DNA from: Chionoecetes opilio
Taxonomy: Eukaryota > Arthropoda > Malacostraca > Decapoda > Majidae
Reading direction: 5' to 3'
Assembly: GCA_016584305.1 (NCBI GenBank)
Contig: JACEEZ010020231.1
Coordinates: 62,501-126,500, forward strand
DNA length: 64,000 nucleotides
The translations under genes were made by a program, and so were the position numbers. Each line of letters opens with the position of its first letter. Positions within the stretch are counted from its first letter, which is position 1. The notes beneath the pieces are model-generated. The model ran no database searches. It saw only the letters and a program-made list of their open reading frames with translations, and was not told where the DNA came from. Shown here one piece after another: positions 1,127-62,007 of the stretch.

Positions 1127-1516
1127 TGCGCAGTCCAGGTATACAGTGGTCTATGTACCGCTACATACTGTATATTATAGTAAAACACGGTAGTACCTAT
1201 GACTGGACTGCACTTACCAGTGCCCTCGCCATTTGCATTCGCCAGTGTTTACATTCTATGTATCAGCTGTTGGAAACAGCTGTGGGTGGAACTGGCCGCT
1301 AAATGTCTTCTCCAGTTGTCGCTTTTGCTCTGGAAGTGACGCATATTGTAGTTGTCTGACTGGAGTTACGGTAGTTGGTGTACAGCGATTGTTAGTAGTG
1401 CTGTTCCACTTGTTTGGCACTCGGTGGTAAAGGTTATTTTATCCTTGCCGTATAAGTCGACCCCTAGTTATGGAGAGATTTATTCAGGCTCAGAGAGTCG
1501 ACTTGTACATTTACGG
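1127..1516. mobile_element. Tigger-like element, E family, partial copy
   Basis: This stretch is an inverted copy of the DNA flanking the hAT-like element at 17933-18080 and 20867-21110, and is related to 61300-62007. Its right terminus reads ...gtcgacttgtacatttacgg followed by TA at 1517, the reverse complement of the family end CCGTAAATGGCGGCGTACAA. The left limit is not clear. It preserves the pre-insertion sequence of the hAT-like element, which makes it useful as an empty-site reference. Confidence 0.65.
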
Positions 1517-2556
1517 TATATATATTTCAAAATTTGAAATGATTTTTTTAATTAATATTTGCCAGCCATCACGACTTATTGTAATTATGAAATAACGAAT
1601 ACCGACTTATCAAAGTTTTACTGTATTTTCATTTTTTCATTTTTTTTCAATACATCTCATTATTTATCATTGACTTTTTTTTTCAAATATGCCGAATACG
1701 GGGCAGTGCCGGATGCTAGAATGCCGGATAAAGGTACTTCCAATGTAATTAAACAAAATTTAAGAAATTTGCCATGAAAATGCAAAACCATAGACTTTAA
1801 CTTATATAACTAATTTTAAAGCATCCATAGTAAAGATTTTTTTTTTTATATCCGTAATAACATTACTGGGCCATCTTTCACAGACAGTTTTGACTGGAAG
1901 TCTTGTATATTGCTTGCTAATTCAGCTTCCATGAAAGTGAGTGTGGTGTGTCATATCCATCAATTCAGCCCCTCTTGGATGTTGGCATGGGCCTCATCTG
2001 CCCATAGGCTATGTGCAGTGTATTTGTTATGTGTGAGGTGGTTCCAATCACAACGTTGGAATCAATATTTTTTCTAATAATTCTCATTTTTTTATGTGTT
2101 GAATGTTTTACTTTGCTGCATAATAGTGTATATTGTTATATTCCACCACTGATCTTATGGCTGTCACTTTCACATTTCACATATATCTTGATGTAGCCCC
2201 ATGAAAATGCACCTGAATAATAGAGAGAATTTTGATAAAAGTTTCTACTTGGTTGTAATGACCATTGAGCCCAATCCTTGATTTAGGGTATAACTCACCT
2301 TTCAGTATCTCTGTTCAGTGTATTTAACAGTCATACATGAATGCATGCATGTATGAATAATATTCATTCTATATTTATACAGAAATGTATAAAAGAAAAT
2401 AAGTATTTCATTTAAATTTGATAAAATTGTCATTAAGTAGACATGCCAAATATAGACATTTCATTCAGTTATGATTGTAAGTTTTAGGAGAGGTGTAGGA
2501 CGCACCATTTTATTTCAGGTTAATTAATTTTATTATTTTTTCTTGATAATATTGTA
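1517..2556. other. Upstream flank of porcupine, nothing recognised
   Basis: AT-rich sequence with short T runs and small unsupported open frames. I see no coding exon, no RNA gene and no clear transposon end. Any 5' untranslated exon or promoter of porcupine could lie here or further left, but nothing in the sequence identifies it. Confidence 0.4.
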
Positions 2557-15965: not shown

Positions 15966-16440
15966 TTATGAACGGTCCGATGTTGACTTACCAGACGTGA
16001 ACCCAGACTGCTGAGGTCTCTGATGCTTCAGCAGATAGCTGTGGATCCGTGTCAGCAATAGATGGGCAAGCACCTTGCCTGGCATGCTGAGCAGTGTAAT
16101 ACCGCGGTAATTGTTGCAGTCCTGACGGTCCCCTTTCTCTTTCCAGATAGGTTCGACCAGCCCCTTTTTCCAGTCAGGAGGAATGGTACCTGATTGCCAC
16201 ACGGCACTCAGGACAGCATGCAACCCGCGGATCATGGCCTCACCCCCAGCTTTGAGGAGCTCCGTACTGATATTACAAACACCAGCTGCCTTTCCACCCC
16301 TCAACTTTGCTACAGCCTCTCTGACTTTGTCAAGAGAGGGTGCGGTTTCGTCAATGGGAGGATCGGCATCCACTGCCCGTAATGCAGTGGTGTGGAGCTG
16401 CCCAATTGGAGGGTCCACCGTGAACAACTGCCCAAAGTAC
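15966..16440 (-). pseudogene. Non-LTR reverse transcriptase fragment
   Basis: On the minus strand, KLRGGKAAGVCNISTELLKA, then PPDWKKGLVEPIWKEKGDR, then NNYRGITLLSMPGKVLAHLL, QQSGFTSGKSTSDR match the fingers/palm N-terminal part of a LINE reverse transcriptase (K.GDR..C.NYRGI.LLS..GK..A..L..R). This class is very common in arthropods. The YADD box and endonuclease are absent, so only about 155 codons survive. The open frame continues into the adjacent DNA-transposon sequence, which is a chance fusion. Confidence 0.75.
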
Positions 16441-16850
16441 CGTATTTTACGGCTTATAAGACGCTGCCTCTTGGAAGATGCATCCTGATTTTGGAAAGAA
16501 ATTTCTAAGAGAAAAAAAACTATATATTCTACCGGTAGGCAGTAGAAAAATCTACCCATTTTCTTGGTAGGCGGTGGTCCACAGTGTCTTTCTGCTGCTC
16601 TGTTCCCATGTTCTTTGGCGTATCGTACAACTTTTAGCTTGTATGTGATAGTATAAGTAAATCGTTTTGATGAATTCGCCATGGGTGATAATTTCTGGGA
16701 CTGAAAAGAGCTTGTGATACGTGTGACGTATGACAGTACCATAGTAAACATCACAGCGTGAGGACAGATTGCAGTATTTGCCGGCGCATAAGACGCAGCT
16801 TTTTTCCAAGAAAGGGAATGCAAAATTCACCCTGCGTCTAATGCGGCCAT
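16441..16850 (-). mobile_element. Tigger/pogo-like element fragment with transposase N-terminus (G family)
   Basis: The right-facing terminus ccgtattttacggcttataa begins at 16440, and a CGCATAAGACGC end lies near 16785-16830. Between them, the minus strand encodes YKLKVVRYAKEHGNRAAERH followed by CGPPPTKKM, the helix-turn-helix start of a pogo/Tigger-type (CENP-B-like) transposase. A second decayed copy of the same words is at 47510-47640. There is no DDE domain. Confidence 0.65.
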
Positions 16851-17930: not shown

Positions 17931-18080
17931 TACCGTAAATGGCGGCGTACAAGACGACTCTTTGAGCCTGAAAAAATCTCTCCATAACTAGGGGTCGACT
18001 TATACGGCAAGGATAAAATGCGAACCTTTACCACCGAGTGCCAAAGAAGTGGAACAGCACTACTAACAATCGCTGTACAC

Positions 18081-20866
18081 TAAGGTGCCAATAAAAAACT
18101 AAAGTTAGATTTTTTGAACGGCCCTTAGTGGAATACTGTGGGGTGGTGAGGAAAACAACGTGTGTAAAATTTGAGCGCAATCGAAGTATATTTAAAGGTG
18201 GCGCAAGTCGATTGATTGTTCCCCCTATAGACTCCGATAGGGACTACAAGGAAGGACATCGTCTCTGGGGTGTTTGTTGGCAATATTGAAGCCTTTTGAG
18301 ACCTCCCCTTCCTCCAGCTGGGCTGCTGGTCCCCCTCGCTCTTCAAAGCGAGTATTAGCCCCTCTAGGGGCGGGGGGTATCATGGTTGCCCAAGCCACTC
18401 ATTGTCTTCCGCTTGGCCGGGGAAGGGAAGCCTTCGATGTTCCTGGCTGTTGTCGACGGTGCCTCTCGACGACCTGCAAGAGGAATTGGCGCTGATCGTC
18501 GTTCTTCGTCAGGCTGAGGTTGAAGGACTGGAACAGCGCCACCCCTCGCTCCGCCGTGTCGTTGGTGACGTGTAGGCTCGCGACGCGACGAACCCCGTGT
18601 CACTCGGCCACTCCTCCGGCTCCTTCGAGAGGAACGCCCTCTCCGCTCCGACGGCGTCGAGGAGGGCGCCGGACGCCTGGCTTCCGAACGACGCTAGCGT
18701 GGACGAGACGAGGCGGGCTTCTGAGACGGTGATGCGCTTCGGCGGTTCCTCGGATCCTTTTTCCTGCTGCATCGCTTCCGCCAGCGCCTTCTTCTCGGCG
18801 GTTGCCAAGCGGTGGTCGAAGAGAGCCATGGTGACCAGTGGCTCGCTCAGGTACCAGAAGTGCCGGGAGAAGGTCTTCACGCACGCCTTGCCGATCTCAG
18901 CGTCGTGGAAGTCGCGGAGGTCGGCGGCCAGTTTCAGGTCATTTGCCGGCGCGAAGGCGGCCACGGGCGCCTCGAACCAGCGGGTCACGTAGACTTCAGC
19001 AACGAAGAAGGTGAACCGGCGGAGGCTGGACAGCTCGCGCGGTGAGCAGAGCTCCCCCAGTTGGGCGGCGAACAGCGTAATCTTCGCCGCGTAGATGGCA
19101 CGCGCGCGATGGCACGAGCGCGCGCGGTGCATGGCGCCCGGTCGCCAGAACTTCACCTTCGGGACGTCGCCCTCGCCACCCAGCAGGACGATGAAGAGTT
19201 CCAGCATCTCCTTGTAGTCGTCCCGCGGGTGGCTGGTGTTGAACAGCGCGGCCCACTCCTGCAGAAGTGTGTCCCGCTTGTTCAGGAGGTTGGGCGGCAG
19301 CTCGTCGGGCGTTGGCAGCTCCGGCTGGCTCTGTTCGACGAAAGCCCACCATTCCTTGAATCGGTTGAAGACGCCGATGTCAGGACCCGACGACGGCCCC
19401 ATGCAGATAGAGAACGCCTTCTCCAGCACCAGCTCATGTACATGGTGCCGGCAGGCGAGGCTTAGCAGACGCCGACCAAGCTTCTGCTCCAGCAGGGTGC
19501 AGGCACCGGCGAGGGCTCCAGTGTTGGCGGCGGTCGTATCGAACGACATAGCCACCACACGATCTGCGAGCCCCCAGTCGTCGAGCGCTTCAGCCACGGC
19601 GCTCGCCATCGCCTCTCCAGTCCCACTTGCCAGCTTGGGAACGCCGATGAGCTTCTGGACGCCGTCGCCGGAGACGAGGATAGCCAGCCGATCCACCCGC
19701 GTACCGTCGCAATCCGGCAGGATCTTCCCGTCCCAGTGAACGGTAAGAGGCGTGTCAGGGACGAAGGTTGTCTTGACTTCCGCGACCAGCTGGGACTGGT
19801 AGCCGGCGCGAGCCTGCCGGATGCTCTCGGCATTCAGGATCAGCTCCTGAGGATTGTAGCCGAGGCTACTGGCGGTCGCCGCGACGATGCGGAGCGCTTT
19901 GCGGTCGCTCACGCCGGTCCGGTCGAGGGCGCTCGCTAACTCCTGGGAGAGCACGACCTGTGACCCCCGCGCTCGTCGCTTCGAAGGACTTGCACCGGTC
20001 GGCTCAGCGGTAGCAGCCGCCCCACCGCGTGCCGGACTGGACTCAACCGAGGAGGAGGAGGAGGAGGAGGACGACGACGCGAGCACCGCGCGTTCATCCA
20101 GCTGCGACGTCGAGGCTTCTCGTGATCGCTTCTCTGCCGCCACTGTCATCTGCCGGCGCTGAACTCGGCGCTCCAGCACCCTGTCTGCTCCCTGCATGAT
20201 CCCTCGGCGACCCTTCTCGCGTTGCGCCGCTAAGAACTCGTGATCAGCCGGGATCGTCATCAAGGTCATCGCGTCGGCGTGGGCGACGTCGAAGAGGTCG
20301 CAGAGGGCCTCTTGAAACTCTTCCTCCTTCGTCTTGTTCGTCGCTCTTCCCTTGCTCTTCACGAGCGCCTTCCAGTCCTTGAACAAGACCTCCACCTTGC
20401 GAACGGCACTTTTTGCCGTCATCGTTGGGATCCTCGCGGTCTCCCAGAACCTTAGCACCTCTTGGACAGTGGCCGCGGCGCTGGTGGTGACGGTTTTCTT
20501 TTCCACGTTGTGGAAGTAGAAAGCCCGCTTGAGCACGTCGCCACGAGAGGGGAGTTTGGCTCCGAGGATGGGGTCGGGGTTTGGCTGTCCCACCAGCCAA
20601 ACAGTCGTAGCTGCGCGTGAATGAGCCATTCTGAAAAAATAATGGGTGATTTAGAACCCTAGCCTTTCAGACTTCGGTACAGGTATCTGGTATAATCACA
20701 TAGTACACATATTACAGGTTTCAATTCACTTGCGCCACCTCTAAATATAAACCGATTCGCTTCAAATTTTGCATGAGAGGTTTTCTCATTACTGCACAGT
20801 ATCCCACCAAGGGCCGTTCAAAAATATCAAGTTTTAAATTTACCCATGTGCGCTATTGGCACCCTA
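18081..20866 (-). mobile_element. hAT-like DNA transposon with 8-bp target-site duplication
   Basis: The element is 2786 bp. It is flanked by exact CTGTACAC duplications at 18073-18080 and 20867-20874. Removing it rebuilds the empty site seen in the related copy at about 1371-1392. The terminal inverted repeats start TAAGGTGCCAATA / TAGGGTGCCAATA and extend imperfectly for about 140 bp. They include 'gaacggccctt', 'ggaatactgtg', 'aaaatttgag' and 'aggtggcgcaagt' in mirrored positions. An 8-bp duplication and TAGGG-type ends are hAT hallmarks. The element encodes a single long gene on the minus strand. Confidence 0.88.
18399..20629 (-). CDS. Large uncharacterised transposase-like protein, hAT-like lineage, one frameshift
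   Basis: This is an uninterrupted frame from ATG at 20629 to about 18590. A small indel near 18575-18592 then shifts the frame; read across it, the protein continues to a stop at 18399 (about 740 residues). Landmarks are an N-terminal segment with FWETARIPTMTAKSAVRKVE and CDLFDVAHADAMTLM, a Ser run near residue 190, then VHWDGKILPDCDG (first Asp), SFDTTAANTG (second Asp), CRHHVHELVLEK (C-x-x-H), ARAIYAAKI, and after the shift VTNDTAERGVALF (candidate Glu). This order parallels the D...D...C-x-x-H...E layout of hAT RNase H-fold transposases. Long proteins of this kind are common, unnamed, in arthropod annotations. The catalytic assignment is inference. The gene is far richer in G+C than the surrounding DNA. 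The frameshift may be real decay or a sequencing error. Confidence 0.75.
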
Positions 20867-21260
20867 CTGTACACCAACTACCGTAACTCCAGTCAGACAA
20901 CTACAATATGCGCCACTTCCAGAGCAAAAGCGACAACTGGAGAAGACGTTTAGCGGCAGTTCCACCATAGCTGTTTCCAATAGCTGATGGAAACAGCTGA
21001 TACACAAAGTGTAAACACTAGCGAATGCAAATGGCGGAGGGCACCGGAACGTGCAGTCCAGTCTTAGGTACTACCGTGTTTTACTATATTATACAGTATG
21101 TAGTGGTACTATCAGGGGACTATGGTGTTTTTCAAGTGAAAACAAGAGGCGGACCTATAATAAAGATTCATATCTAAATATAAGTGGTGTGGTGTTATGT
21201 GTTTTTGCGACAGGTTACCGTATACCGTACCATAGCCTATCCACATTCTAGGGTAGGTAA

Positions 21261-40092: not shown

Positions 40093-40914
40093 TCACTAAT
40101 AACGTCATAGCGAGACCCCCCCCCCCAAAAAAAAATTACTAACCTAACCTACCCTTGTAAAATTATGGTTATATTTTACTAACCTAACTAACCTTACTAA
40201 CTTGCATTACCCCTCCTACCGCAAGATGACCAGTAATCCTCCTTCAAGTGATGTAGTAGGTATTCACTGTGTGAATATGTAAGTTGTAGTTTATAAGGAA
40301 AAAGTGGATAGACAGAGATAAGTGGCCCGTGACACCAGACAAGTGATGACTTCTGGGATCGGCATTCCTTATAGGGAGCTTAAATGAACCTGCAATGACA
40401 TGTATAGCTAGACAGATAGACGAAGTCATAGAGGAACGGGTAGAAATGTATGGTTAGTAAAGGTTGTAGTGGTGAGTAGAGTGACGAAGGGTGTATGTTT
40501 TGCTTATGTGGGGAAAGAAAGCCATACATTTCTACCTGTTCCTCTATGAATTTGTCTATCTGTCTAGCTTTACATGTCTTTGCAGGTTCATTTAAGCTCC
40601 CTATAATAGGGTACGCCGTATAACAAAAAAAAAATTCTCAACTTTGGCATGCCAATTTCGTATGTAAAATGGAATTCTAAGACGATTTTATCTCAATCCA
40701 TTTTTGCATTTGAGCAATTCTTACTATGCAAAATTGCACTTTTATATTGCACCCTTATCGAATAATGCTTAAATGAGTACGCAGTGTCCGGTTGGTCCTG
40801 TATATTGCATCATGCACCAATATGAGTTCCAAATGACCAGCGTGCGTGGTAAGCTCTTTCTGATCAGTTGGTTCATCAGGCACTACATCACAGTGTCACA
40901 GCCTCTACGTTGGC

Positions 40915-42279
40915 CTAGAACGTGTCCATCATGTCCTTCTTAGACCTGAAGCAGGGCATGGTCTCCCGGTGGTGGGCCCGAGCCCGGATGAACCCGTCTC
41001 TGGCCTGCTGCCCCACCACTGCTGCCGCAGTCTCTGTCACCTGCTTCACGACTCTTTCGGTGCTCTGAGTGTGGATAGAGAACTCCGGAACCTCGTACGG
41101 CTTGTCCAGGATCTCCTGGATCTGATCCCCGGACAATGAACAGGTGAATGCCGGCTCGTGCACCAGGTCAGGCTGCCAGCTGATCAGTGTCTGCAAGCTG
41201 GTGGCTGACAAGTTCAGCTTGGGTGTGATGCGAGGTCTTACACTGGTGTCCCCATACTCCTCGCCAGCCCTCAGCTTCAAAATCTGGGTCACGGCGAACC
41301 TGCGGTCGTCCTCACTCTGACTCACCATCAGCGAGAGGAGGACACATTCTGAGTGTGCGAACCATGCTCCTGTCCGCACGTAGAAGGTCACAGCTGTTTG
41401 GACCTTCTTGGGCTGCGACCTCATCCCTCTGAGCTGCGTGAGGATGTGCTTGGGGCCGTCCTCTAGTCTGTGGTGAACTTTGATGTCGTAGTAAAGTTTG
41501 AAGTACACCTGCAGGCAGTACTTGACTAGGATTTCCAGGGTGTTCAGTTCTTTGCCAGTCAGTCCATGCTTTCTGGTCCACATGTACACGAGCGACTGGG
41601 CTGTGGTGAGCCATCTGGAGTGGGACACCTTGCCACACTTGATCTCCTGCAGCTCGGACGGGAGAATGCCCCGCTTCACAGCCTGGACCAGCTGGTAGGA
41701 GACCTGCTGGTCAGTGGACATGTTGACCAGGATATACTCCGGTATCTCCATGAGATCTTCACCGTCTGGCACTCCTCTGAACTCTGCGTTGTACTGCATC
41801 TCATTCACGCTGGACAGCAGACTGCACACTGGACCCGTGAAGTAATGGATGTCAGATGAGGTAGGCCCGTCGATGCTGGTGATAAGGTGGCGCAGGGGCA
41901 ACTCGTTTGTGTGCAACACGCATATACTCCAGAAGAGCTTGCGTCCCAGCATCTTCTCCAAATGGGCGTGAGTACCATTCTTCCACCCCGTGTTGGCCCT
42001 AGTTGAGTCACCTTGCAGTACGATTAGTGAGTTGGTGGAGTCGTATATCACCAGCAGATCATAGAGAGACTGAGCCACCTTGAACGCAGGCTTCTCAGGT
42101 GGCACCGGGTCCTCTGGTACAAAGTGCCAAAGGTACCTTCCAGATGGCTCCTCTGTCACTGACACATGCTCCTCCCTGATCAACCTTGGGTGCAGTTTCC
42201 CATAGCTGTCGGGCACCATCGCCCTAGTCTTGTCCTTCCTCCCATCGTAACCCAATACAATTATTTTGGTACCCTGGTT
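40915..42279 (-). CDS. Uncharacterised transposase-like protein, hAT-like lineage, N-terminally truncated
   Basis: An open frame of at least 446 codons ends at 40915. It is open upstream (no ATG at 42255, where the codon is TTG) and runs into the internal terminal repeat at 42279, so the natural N-terminus is missing. Motifs in order are IVLGYDGRKDKT (first Asp), EEHVSVTEEPSGRYLWH, LQGDSTRANTG (second Asp), CVLHTNELPLRHLI (C-x-x-H), SRWLTTAQSL (the R-W motif of hAT transposases), VYFKLYYDIK and WFAHSECVLL. Close relatives are frequent as unnamed proteins in arthropods. Motif order matches hAT RNase H-fold transposases and the 8-bp duplication agrees. A clear C-terminal catalytic Glu block was not found, so it may be truncated at both ends. 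Confidence 0.7.
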   Translation of the reverse strand, partial: NQGTKIIVLGYDGRKDKTRAMVPDSYGKLHPRLIREEHVSVTEEPSGRYLWHFVPEDPVPPEKPAFKVAQSLYDLLVIYDSTNSLIVLQGDSTRANTGWKNGTHAHLEKMLGRKLFWSICVLHTNELPLRHLITSIDGPTSSDIHYFTGPVCSLLSSVNEMQYNAEFRGVPDGEDLMEIPEYILVNMSTDQQVSYQLVQAVKRGILPSELQEIKCGKVSHSRWLTTAQSLVYMWTRKHGLTGKELNTLEILVKYCLQVYFKLYYDIKVHHRLEDGPKHILTQLRGMRSQPKKVQTAVTFYVRTGAWFAHSECVLLSLMVSQSEDDRRFAVTQILKLRAGEEYGDTSVRPRITPKLNLSATSLQTLISWQPDLVHEPAFTCSLSGDQIQEILDKPYEVPEFSIHTQSTERVVKQVTETAAAVVGQQARDGFIRARAHHRETMPCFRSKKDMMDTF

Positions 42280-42589
42280 AGGGTACGCCGTATAACAAAA
42301 ATTCTTTTTCTCAACTTTGGCATGCAGATTTCTTATGTAAAATGGAATTCTAAGACGATTTTATCTGTTTCAATTTTTGCATTTGAGCAATTCTTACTAT
42401 GCAAAATCGCACTTTAAGCTATGTTTTGCATATAAATATAAAAGTCCATTTTTGCATAGCAAGAAGTGCTCAAACCAAAAAGTTGAAGTGGACAAATCAC
42501 CCTTAAAATTCAATTTTACATAAGAAAACATCCTGCCAAATTCGAAATAATCTATATTTCACTTTTCATTGGACCTACGGCGTACCCTA
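42279..42589. mobile_element. Internal 311-bp MITE-like unit with both TAGGGTACGCCGTA ends
   Basis: It starts tagggtacgccgtataacaa and ends cctacggcgtaccctа-type (tacggcgtaccct then a). No private target duplication is seen (accctggt against ccctataa), so it did not insert independently. It shares the right end with the larger element. Confidence 0.7.
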
Positions 42590-43010
42590 CCCTATAAGGA
42601 ATGCCGATCCCAGAAGTCATCACTTGTCTGGTGTTACGGGCCACTTATCTCTGTCTATCCACTTTTTCCTTATAAACTACAACTTACATATTCACAAACA
42701 CAGTGAATACCTACTACATCACTTGAAGGAGGATTACTGGTCATCTTGCGGTAGTAGGGGTAATGCAAGTTAGTGTATTAGTAGGTAGTACATATAGTAG
42801 CGGCCGCTTCACAGCTGTTTTGCTCTGTTGTCTGCGCTGTTGACGTCACAACATGGCGCCAGTCGTTTTAGAGCGTATACATTTTCCTGTACTTAAATTG
42901 GCTGTATCATCAAAAATACTGTTCACATAGAAAAATCAACATCACTGCCCAACTATATGAGGCTTGAAGATTTCAAATCAATCGTTACCTCAAGTAGAGT
43001 AAACGGGTCC

Positions 43011-57165: not shown

Positions 57166-57239
57166 AAGGTGTGCGTAGGTGACTATAGGGATAAGAGATT
57201 GATGGTGTTTCAGTATGTTTTGTCACCACGAGCGCTATT

Positions 57240-59441
57240 ATGTCTCGTCCCAGAAAGCGAACTTTGACAGACCCTGAGTTAGTTGAAGAATTTTTTAGGG
57301 AGAACATAAGTGACTTTGATTCTGACGACTCTTTTGACGACTCTTGTGATGACCGGGACTACGTGCAATCATCAGAAACGTCGTCGAGTGGTGAAGAGAG
57401 TGAGGTACCCTCGCCACGCAAGATGGTGTACGATGTATACGGGAAGGCATCGACGGCTATGTGTCGCCTCCACCTTCAAGGCGATGATGAAGAGGATGTG
57501 AACGAACCCCAGACATCATCGGTGCCCACATGGCTGACCAGTCCAGTGGCCATGCAACGAACATCATTACCAGGAAATCCACCTCGGAACAAGCGAATGA
57601 AAGTGAGTGGTGCTGGGCCTCTTATCACCCAAGGGTCTACCCCTTCCCCTCTCTTCCCCGCTGATGCCGACATGCCGTCACCTACTCTACTCGCCTTGAC
57701 ACACCAACACCTCTTCCTACATCCCCACAACCTGGTACGAGTGCAGATGCAGCAACAGGGAAATGGAAGGGGAAGGCAGCCTCGTCCCAGCGTAGGGTTT
57801 CACGTGGTAGGGGGCGCCGCAGGGGAGGTAATATTCCTGCACATCACGACGTGCCTGACCCTGAATCGACGAACACAGGGGGTGAAACTGACTTTGTGTG
57901 GGAGTGGGAGGATGGGATTAGCTTCACCCCAACCATTCACCCCTTCCTCGACGAGGCCATCGCAGGGGTCAATGTCCCTGAACTCACTCCTGAGTCAATT
58001 TATGCAGATTATTTATATAATTTCTTCCCAGTGGCCCTCATAGAAACAATAGTGGGGCTAACAAACTCCTACAATCATTTCAGAATGGGGGCGAAGGTGC
58101 AGACAACATACACTCGACGTTACCATTGGAAGGATATTGATGTCAAGGAATTTTACTCCTTCATTTGTGTCGTCCTTCTGATGGGAGTGGTAAAAAAGTC
58201 TAATGCAAGAAAGTATTGGTCAACCGACCCCTTAGCTGCTACCCCCATTTTTGGCCAAATAATGTCAAAAAACAGGTTCTACGATATCATGGGGAACTTG
58301 CATTTCTTTGATAACCTCGATCCTGCCATGAGAGAGAGCAACGACGTTATGAGAAGGATTAGGCTTGTTTTTGACCACCTCAGGGGCAAGTTCTCGTCAT
58401 CATTCAATCCCCACCAGAAACTTGTGATCGACGAGAGCTTGGTATTGTGGCGAGGCAATCTCAGTTTCCGCCAATACATACCAAGCAAACGTCACCGTTT
58501 TGGCTTCAAACTCTTTGTGATGTGCGACTGTCAAACGGGGTACATACAGGATATGCTTCTCTACACTGGCCAGCAAACAGAGATTAGTGAGGACAGGAAA
58601 TATGGAGTCTCAGGTGAAGTGGTCAAGGCACTGATTGGGAGGTACTTGGGGCGAGGCCATATATTGTACATTGACAACTGGTATACAAGCCCCCTACTCG
58701 CTGATTACCTCTTCAAGCGCGACACAGGTGTTTGTGGTACCGTCAAGAGGGGCCGCAAACACATGCCAACATTCCCCCGTGTCAAGAAAGGCGAGTGCAC
58801 TTATTTCACAACCAAAAACATCATCGCCATGTCCTGGATAGACAAAAGAGATGTCAACCTGCTCTCTAGTGTCCATCGACCCATCATGCAGACTTCAAAA
58901 TCATACGACTACAAGGAGAAGAAATACATCGACAAACCTGAAGCGGTGATGGACTATAACATAAATATGAGACAGGTAGACAAATCTGATGCCATGATTT
59001 CAAGTGTTGAGTGTGCTAGAAGAACAATGAAATGGTATAAGAAGATGTTTTTTCACCTCCTTGATATGACGATTCTCAACAGCCACCCACATTCTCTACA
59101 CTCTGAAGACAGGGGAAAATCAAACCTTAGAAGAGTTCGTTATCGAGGTGGTGCGTAGTGTCTTGGCACACAACACCGTTCAGAGAGTGACACAAACGCC
59201 CTCACAGACCATTGCAGGGCCGTCAAGAGATACACCCGCGCGTTTGGGAGTCTCGCACTTCATCTCAACAATCCCGGCCACGGGAACACAACGGTGTCCA
59301 CAACGACGGTGCCACGTCTGCCAGCAAACCACACGACATGCCAAGAAGCGGAAGGACACGCGTTACCAGTGCAGTGACTGTAATGTAGGGCTTTGCCTGG
59401 AGCCCTGCTTCAAAGAATATCATACATTGATCCATTACTGA
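57240..59441 (+). pseudogene. piggyBac transposase (PGBD4-like), two frameshifts
   Basis: The protein starts MSRPRKRTLTDPELVEEFF with an acidic N-terminus. One indel between about 57665 and 57740 shifts it into the frame that runs through FTPTIHPFLDEAIAGVNVPE to 59158. A second indel near 59090 shifts to the C-terminal frame ending FKEYHTLIHY at 59441. Catalytic Asp residues are visible in LVIDESLVLWRG, ILYIDNWYTSPLLADY and MRQVDKSDAM, the DDD layout of piggyBac transposases. The C-terminal Cys-rich domain (CHVCQQT, CSDCNVGLC, EPCF..YH) that binds the terminal repeats is present. Total length about 730 residues. Only the two frameshifts seem to block function, so this is a young copy, or the indels are sequencing errors. 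Confidence 0.9.
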
Positions 59442-61285: not shown

Positions 61286-61299
61286 TATATTCATTATTA

Positions 61300-62007
61300 C
61301 CGTAAATGGCGGCGTACAAGTCGAGTCTTTGAGCCTGAAAAAATCTCTCCAAAACTAGGGGTCGACATACGACTAGGATAAAATGCGAACCCCCTTACCA
61401 CCGAGTGGCAAACAAGTGAATACACCACTAACAATCGCTGTATACCACTTACCATAACTCCAGCAGGTTACCACAAATATTTCCAACTAAAACTTGTGTT
61501 CGGTGAACTTACTTAACATATTTAACACACAGATTTATATATAAATAATAAAATAATAATAGAAATTCTGTTTATATAAACACAAAACCATAGGCTGTTT
61601 CCAACAACTGATACACAGATTGTAAACACTGACCGGAACGCCACTGAACCAAAGCGGCCAGTCAGGCAAATACAATATGCGCCACTTCCAGAGCAGTCCA
61701 AGGTTGCTCTCCAACTGCCTTGCTGCTCGCCGAGCGCTTCCAGTCAGGCTCACTTTTTCAAGTGAAAACAAGAGGCTAGTAAAGATTCATATCTTCATAT
61801 AAGTGGTGTGGTGTTGTGTGTTTTTTCGACAAATTACTACCGTATACCGTACCATAGCCTATCCACATTTAAGCTTTGACCTACCAGTAGCCTACCGTAT
61901 TTTGGGGCCCGACTTATATGGCAAGTATAGGCCTAACCCGTAATCTTGAGCTAATAATCTTGAGATCGACTTGTATGCCTGGTCGACTTATACACTGCAA
62001 TTTACGG
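61300..62007. mobile_element. Tigger-like element, E family, complete 708-bp copy
   Basis: The ends ccgtaaatggcggcgtacaa and cgacttatacactgcaatttacgg-type (last 13 bp actgcaatttacgg) are inverted repeats. TA duplications lie at 61298-61299 and 62008-62009. The internal tctttgagcctgaaaaaatc and aagtgaaaacaagaggc segments match 17955-17985 and 21137-21152. Non-coding. Confidence 0.85.

Follow-up and report, generated by a model that had tools for sequence, protein, structure and literature searches.

Transposases of the hAT type usually, though not universally, carry an N-terminal BED zinc finger, and the Hermes transposase nicks the DNA 1 nt outside the end of its element. Two publications describe hAT transposases as acting on the non-transferred strand before the other one and as producing a hairpin on the flanking DNA (PMC6900584, PMC4763223). 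For hATm elements, with more than 74 entries in Repbase, the available text gives 5′-TAGGGTG and CACCCTA-3′ termini and target site duplications (TSDs) of 8 or 9 bp (PMC6004678). Here, a transposon family named F1 was analyzed in a 64,000-nucleotide stretch of the Chionoecetes opilio genome (contig JACEEZ010020231.1, positions 62,501 to 126,500 of the forward strand, assembly GCA_016584305.1), which is called the window in the following. With a probability of roughly 0.9, the F1 element is a cut-and-paste DNA transposon of the autonomous type, and its only gene codes for a divergent transposase of the hAT type, presumably acting through flank hairpins. The element very likely works like a hAT element and is likely a member of hAT, broadly defined. 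Direct support comes from the ends, the 8-bp duplications, the spread in multiple copies, the predicted fold, the conserved motifs and palindromic scars which fit a TSD of 8 bp and an offset of 1 nt. New are a second family in the window (F2), an N-terminal domain unlike BED and the palindromic fillers at insertion junctions.

Boundaries and Target Site of the F1 Element

The F1 element of the window spans positions 18081–20866 (2786 bp) and has the termini TAAGGTGCCAATA and TATTGGCACCCTA. It is flanked by two exactly matching copies of CTGTACAC, the left TSD at 18073–18080 and the right TSD at 20867–20874. The left terminal inverted repeat (18081–18215, plus strand) starts with TAAGGTGCCAATA and the right one (20721–20866, minus strand) ends with CACCCTA. 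Both pair over about 117 inner columns and 12 of the 13 outermost bases, with a local alignment score of 104 compared to a maximum of 25 in 500 shuffles. Joined without the element, the flanks give a single 390-column alignment to positions 1155–1521 (minus strand), with 89% identity and 25 gap positions. At least 60 bp are identical across the junction, and CTGTACAC occurs there only once, marking this related target repeat as a paralogous empty site. The original prediction, which had described an exact 8-bp TSD at 18073..20874, long terminal inverted repeats and a rebuilt empty site resembling a related copy near position 1380, was thus borne out in these three points. A second related target repeat without the element, at 61298–61463 (plus strand), crosses the site as CTGTATAC. 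The GC content of the element is 60%, that of the whole window 44%.

A near-perfect palindrome at 307–1056 (arms 307–455/908–1056 with 98% and 458–652/710–904 with 93%) represents a long hairpin-type element, which adjoins the empty-site copy.

The F1 Transposase

The open reading frame (ORF) of the window element codes for 706 amino acids (aa) at 18509–20629 on the minus strand, instead of the 740 residues predicted originally, and is frameshifted near its C-terminus, as seen against homologues. A C-terminal coding stretch in another frame, found by tblastn at 18408–18590 (minus strand), contains ND.AERG with the presumed catalytic E. In addition, the RW motif is disturbed, reading HRARSCHR where relatives have HRARW. 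Because of the frame break and this motif, the window copy is probably dead, judging from its sequence.

The D...D(TTAANTG)...CxxH...E motifs noticed earlier correspond to the D-D-CxxH-RW-E set of hAT transposases. In an alignment of 48 F1 members, both D residues are found in 48/48 and the E in 47/48, the sole member without it being the window copy; the C and H of CxxH and the R of RW are each present in 48/48 and the W in 45/48. The second D and CxxH align with Hermes in hhalign. The predicted fold is RNase H-like, as had been proposed for checking, with an all-helical insertion separating the second D from the E, and its nearest relative is Hermes, which accounts for all of the top six structural entries among the matches listed. 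The structural match of the model extends to Hermes residue 609, across the region of PF05699, whereas PF05699 is absent among the 25 listed of 41 Pfam families matched in a scan of the 48 members. The placement in a hAT-like lineage is therefore supported by ends, TSDs, predicted Hermes-like fold and motifs, but the label of a cargo gene has to be replaced, as the gene is read as the transposase itself. The two outcomes which the original prediction had named as refuting, gene copies with other ends or TSD lengths and a fold unlike RNase H, were both checked and did not refute it, with both ends kept at 37 of 50 loci and an exact 8-bp TSD in 19 of these 37.

At E ≤ 0.001, 314 F1 homologues were found. 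Homologues of F1 and F2 are mostly unnamed among the matches listed, and the species, where given, are mainly crustaceans; an aphid and a limpet also occur. Some F1 homologues sit in Chionoecetes gene models labelled Rab-21 or ribosomal protein L24.

F1 Copies in the C. opilio Assembly

The search of the 1.94-Gb assembly resulted in 69 match rows at 63 places, and all copy counts are lower bounds, as 63 of 13,609 first-look candidates were scored. Fifty of the 63 places (30 + 20) were examined, the remaining 13 being outside the counts. Both ends were found at 37 loci, the 5′ end only at nine, the 3′ end only at three and neither end at one. The 37 both-ended copies start with TAGGGTG in 33 cases and end with CACCCTA in 33. 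An exact 8-bp duplication is present in 19 of them, eight in AT repeats and 11 elsewhere, while exchanging flanks between the 21 non-AT copies gave 0/420 exact matches. The 11 exact non-AT duplications all have an A at position 7, and seven have a T at position 2. Most both-ended copies (34/37) are shorter than 2900 bp. Their nearest-neighbor identity ranges from 93.7 to 97.1% (median 96.4%, n = 37), and their average GC content is 60% compared to 39% in the flanks. When the longest ORF per copy was surveyed, a frame of at least 700 aa from ATG to stop was seen at 5 of the 50 loci, one of which has all five motif patterns.

With one 146-nt F1 end as DNA query, 40 of 904 candidates were scored, all of them 98–100% identical. 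Many of these matches fall outside the list of places from the protein search, and the true size of the family therefore exceeds the count given here. The copy pairs L045/L125 and L021/L139 lie on different contigs, and their 40-bp flanks agree nearly or fully on either side; this points to duplications in the assembly or to haplotypes kept in it.

A Second Related Family in the Same Window

The family F2 was detected by tblastn with F1 homologues (match at 42096–41839, E = 3e-7). Its element in the window (40607–42589, minus strand, 1983 bp; ends TAGGGTACGCCGTA) is N-terminally shortened and has TAGGGTACGCC ends and an exact duplication of CCCTATAA, the left TSD at 40599–40606 and the right TSD at 42590–42597. 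The F2 termini read TAGGGTA, compared to TAGGGTG in F1. The transposase frame covers 481 aa from stop to stop (40918–42360, minus strand). F2 lies in one arm of a hairpin-type element, the other arm of which is intact and preserves the unoccupied site. This target extends over 40196–42774, with arms that are 99% complementary. A second direct copy of the left end lies inside F2 near the right end (42279–42589), without a matching TSD; because of this direct repeat, the right end looks compound.

For F2, 253 homologues were found at E ≤ 0.001 (120 of them listed), with lengths of up to about 840 aa among the matches listed. An alignment of 37 F2 members matches the F1 alignment over 697 columns (E = 1.8e-29, score 251), whereas 40 shuffles scored no higher than 29.9. 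On the basis of these alignments, F2 is a full-length homologue family of F1. It has the motifs YDGRK, GDSTxxNTG, CxxHxNEL, HSRW and STER, in which the first D is conserved in 36/37 and the second D, C, H, W and E each in 37/37 members. An N-terminal Cys cluster is present in F2 and absent from F1, whose N-terminal domain has no recognizable BED finger and no clear match in the PDB. In the genome search for F2, 55 of 63,343 candidates were scored.

Palindromic Fillers at Insertion Junctions

Junctions were compared in 37 F1 and 26 F2 copies (25 F2 end pairs and the window copy). After removal of seven F2 pairs without both termini and 18 copies in simple repeats (17 F1, one F2), the informative set consisted of 38 copies (20 F1, 18 F2) with 38 distinct flank pairs. 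Exact duplications are found in 15 of these insertions (11 F1, four F2). A further class of seven insertions (L016, L037, L045, L051, L055, L057, L073) shows 2–3 extra bases at one junction, exactly 1 nt from the element. The order on this side is the seven distal TSD bases, the extra bases, and the TSD base which touches the element. In 17/17 bases the filler agrees with the prediction for palindromic nucleotides, namely the TSD complement as it would be read backwards from a hairpin tip; the chance of this is about 1e-9 at p = 0.30 per base. Such filler is seen in F2 as well as in F1, where it can lie at either terminus. The cross-pair control of the scar model gave 0/1406. Of 12 combinations of TSD size (7, 8, 9) and offset (0–3), size 8 with offset 1 fits seven copies and each other combination none or one; on these grounds, the other TSD sizes (7 and 9 bp) and offsets (0, 2 and 3 nt) were rejected. 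The palindromic filler is probably the scar expected from the flank-hairpin chemistry of hAT transposases, as far as standing insertions reveal it.

If one mismatch is allowed, the scar model fits ten copies, and two single-mismatch TSDs are added, with 18/1406 cross-pairs falling into any class. If arbitrary filler is allowed, 24/30 bases agree with the palindromic prediction. At the copies L081, L063 and L119, palindromic filler is apparent at both ends with one or two mismatches, and no exact model fits. Among the titles and beginnings of abstracts seen in the open-licence literature, no report of scars in occupied hAT sites was found. The nearest known case, as far as the available text goes, is that of hobo episomes, a different product, in which sequence at the joints was attributed to hairpins that had formed on the excised ends and were then resolved (PMC2803484).

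Proposed Mechanism of Transposition

DNA binding and catalysis are inferred, and so is the view that the scars arose when a hairpin on one side of an occupied site was opened and joined again. The N-terminal helical domain, which is not a recognizable BED finger, would bind the long inverted repeats. The RNase H-like core with D, D and E and the all-helical insertion would then place a nick in one strand, 1 nt beyond the element end. The 3′-OH of the flank may attack the opposite strand, aided by CxxH and RW, so that the flank ends in a hairpin and the element in a free 3′ end. The element would join the target with an 8-bp stagger, preferably at sites resembling nTnnnnAn. If a flank hairpin is opened off-center and rejoined to an element end that still bears one flanking base, the observed filler order would result. 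This order could stem from one-ended cleavage or from interrupted gap repair after excision.

Alternative Explanations

Several results weigh against this interpretation. Foldseek alone gave no match at E ≤ 0.001, and Hermes is absent among the 50 matches listed. No hAT Pfam domain, including PF05699, was found in the window protein and 13 other F1 proteins scanned singly, and the comparison of F2 with the Hermes family by hhalign was not significant (E = 0.29). The first D, the W and the E of F1 were equated with those of Hermes by motif, order and the end points of structural alignments, not residue by residue. An exact 8-bp match is missing in 18 of the 37 both-ended F1 copies, and 16 of the 38 informative insertions fit neither an exact TSD nor an exact scar, although two of the 16 have single-mismatch TSDs and three fit the scar model with one mismatch. 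The scar pattern was spotted by eye before the formal test, and the data inspected then were a subset of those tested. Among ten F2 pairs fetched later, seven were usable and gave two exact TSDs and no exact scar. From 20 later F1 pairs, 13 were dropped, three lay in simple repeats and four were usable; these comprise two exact TSDs, one of them in L139, whose flanks identify it as the insertion already seen in L021, the copy L119 fitting the scar model with one mismatch, and a single exact scar in L125, which is the same insertion as L045.

The lack of a detectable Pfam transposase domain in the window protein would suit an ORF that is only the passenger of a transposon moved by another enzyme. 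However, copies mostly below 2900 bp leave little room for a second gene, the other ORFs of the window element are much shorter and mostly overlap the transposase ORF, and the protein itself has the Hermes-like predicted fold and the D-D-CxxH-RW-E set. As its distant homologue F2 furthermore sits in a separate element with an exact 8-bp TSD, the passenger reading was rejected and has next to no chance of being correct. A transposase related to those of P elements or RAG/Transib is also very improbable. P elements make 8-bp TSDs as F1 does, but their insertion is a GTP-binding domain, whereas that of F1 is predicted to be all-helical; Transib and RAG form TSDs of 5 bp, not 8 bp. None of the 14 F1 proteins scanned against Pfam matched THAP, all of the top six structural entries among the matches listed are of Hermes, and the scars fit a TSD of 8 bp with offset 1. 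Both candidates were rejected on this evidence, even though P elements are placed near hAT in an RNase H classification (PMC3985635) and flank hairpins are formed by RAG too (PMC6900584), in each case according to the text available. A third possibility is compatible with the hAT-type transposase: the element may simply be a member of the described hATm family, its lineage being new only in this host, which we consider fairly probable. Published hATm elements have TAGGGTG ends, and F1 is for this reason probably hATm-like, with 33 of 37 copies at each end in agreement; identity with hATm is probable but unproven. Since a published hAT family, hATm, shows the same termini, the lineage has probably been described as a transposon before, even though its protein is unnamed. 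Against hATm stand the TAGGGTA termini of F2 and the missing match to PF05699 in the 14 proteins scanned singly, a domain which the available text reports for the transposase of hATm-6 (PMC6004678).

The fillers could also be ordinary indels after insertion or misread element ends. The divergence of 3–6% between a copy and its nearest relative speaks for this, as do the insertions in no exact class, the recognition of the pattern ahead of its test, and the lack of an independent exact scar among the 4 + 7 usable later pairs. The evidence for scars thus lies in the agreement, base by base, within the first set. Still, indels would be expected neither to follow the prediction in all 17 bases nor to single out one of 12 combinations of TSD and offset, and the empty cross-pair control and the occurrence in both families and at either F1 end argue against them as well. 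Indels are thus an unlikely explanation, and the hairpin origin of the fillers is preferred.

Other Elements in the Window

A piggyBac-like transposase is encoded at 57195–59155 (plus strand), where the ORF 57665–59155 matches PF13843 (DDE_Tnp_1_7; E = 6.4e-81), a domain we take to be that of piggyBac; the upstream ORF 57195–58040 has no Pfam match. At 15969–16826 (minus strand), a reverse transcriptase domain was matched weakly (PF00078, E = 0.0013), a hit that does not reach the curated cut-off.

Significance and Comparison with Known Systems

The 314 F1 and 253 F2 homologues can be named transposases and masked. The two families suggest that hAT-type machinery operates with an N-terminal domain unlike BED, and we lean somewhat towards regarding them as a large BED-less hAT branch with its own DNA-binding domain and "open-and-shut" scars at occupied sites. 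If true, hAT cleavage chemistry with its 8-bp stagger, 1-nt offset and flank hairpin would be readable from standing insertions. Counting in genome assemblies would then offer a test of a cutting mechanism that is usually approached through purified enzymes. The scars would resemble P nucleotides in V(D)J joints and would record one-ended cleavage in vivo, comparable to open-and-shut V(D)J joints.

With hATm, F1 shares the TAGGGTG/CACCCTA termini, 8-bp TSDs and long inverted repeats, as far as the available text describes them (PMC6004678). It differs in the length of the repeats, about 146 bp in F1 compared to 417 and 575 bp in two hATm elements, and in PF05699, reported there for hATm-6 and undetected in F1. 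Buster and Tip elements resemble F1 in their 8-bp TSDs, a comparison by target site and not by sequence; TcBuster targets nnnTAnnn according to the text available (PMC10512250), and a central TA is also found in several F1 TSDs, e.g., GTGTACAG and CTGTACAT. Hermes- and Ac-type elements correspond to F1 in the predicted RNase H core with helical insertion, the D-D-CxxH-RW-E set, the 8-bp TSD with A at position 7 and the scars fitting flank hairpins. They are separated from F1 by an identity of 9–12% in the structural alignments of the F1 model with Hermes, by the longer inverted repeats of F1 and by its N-terminal domain.
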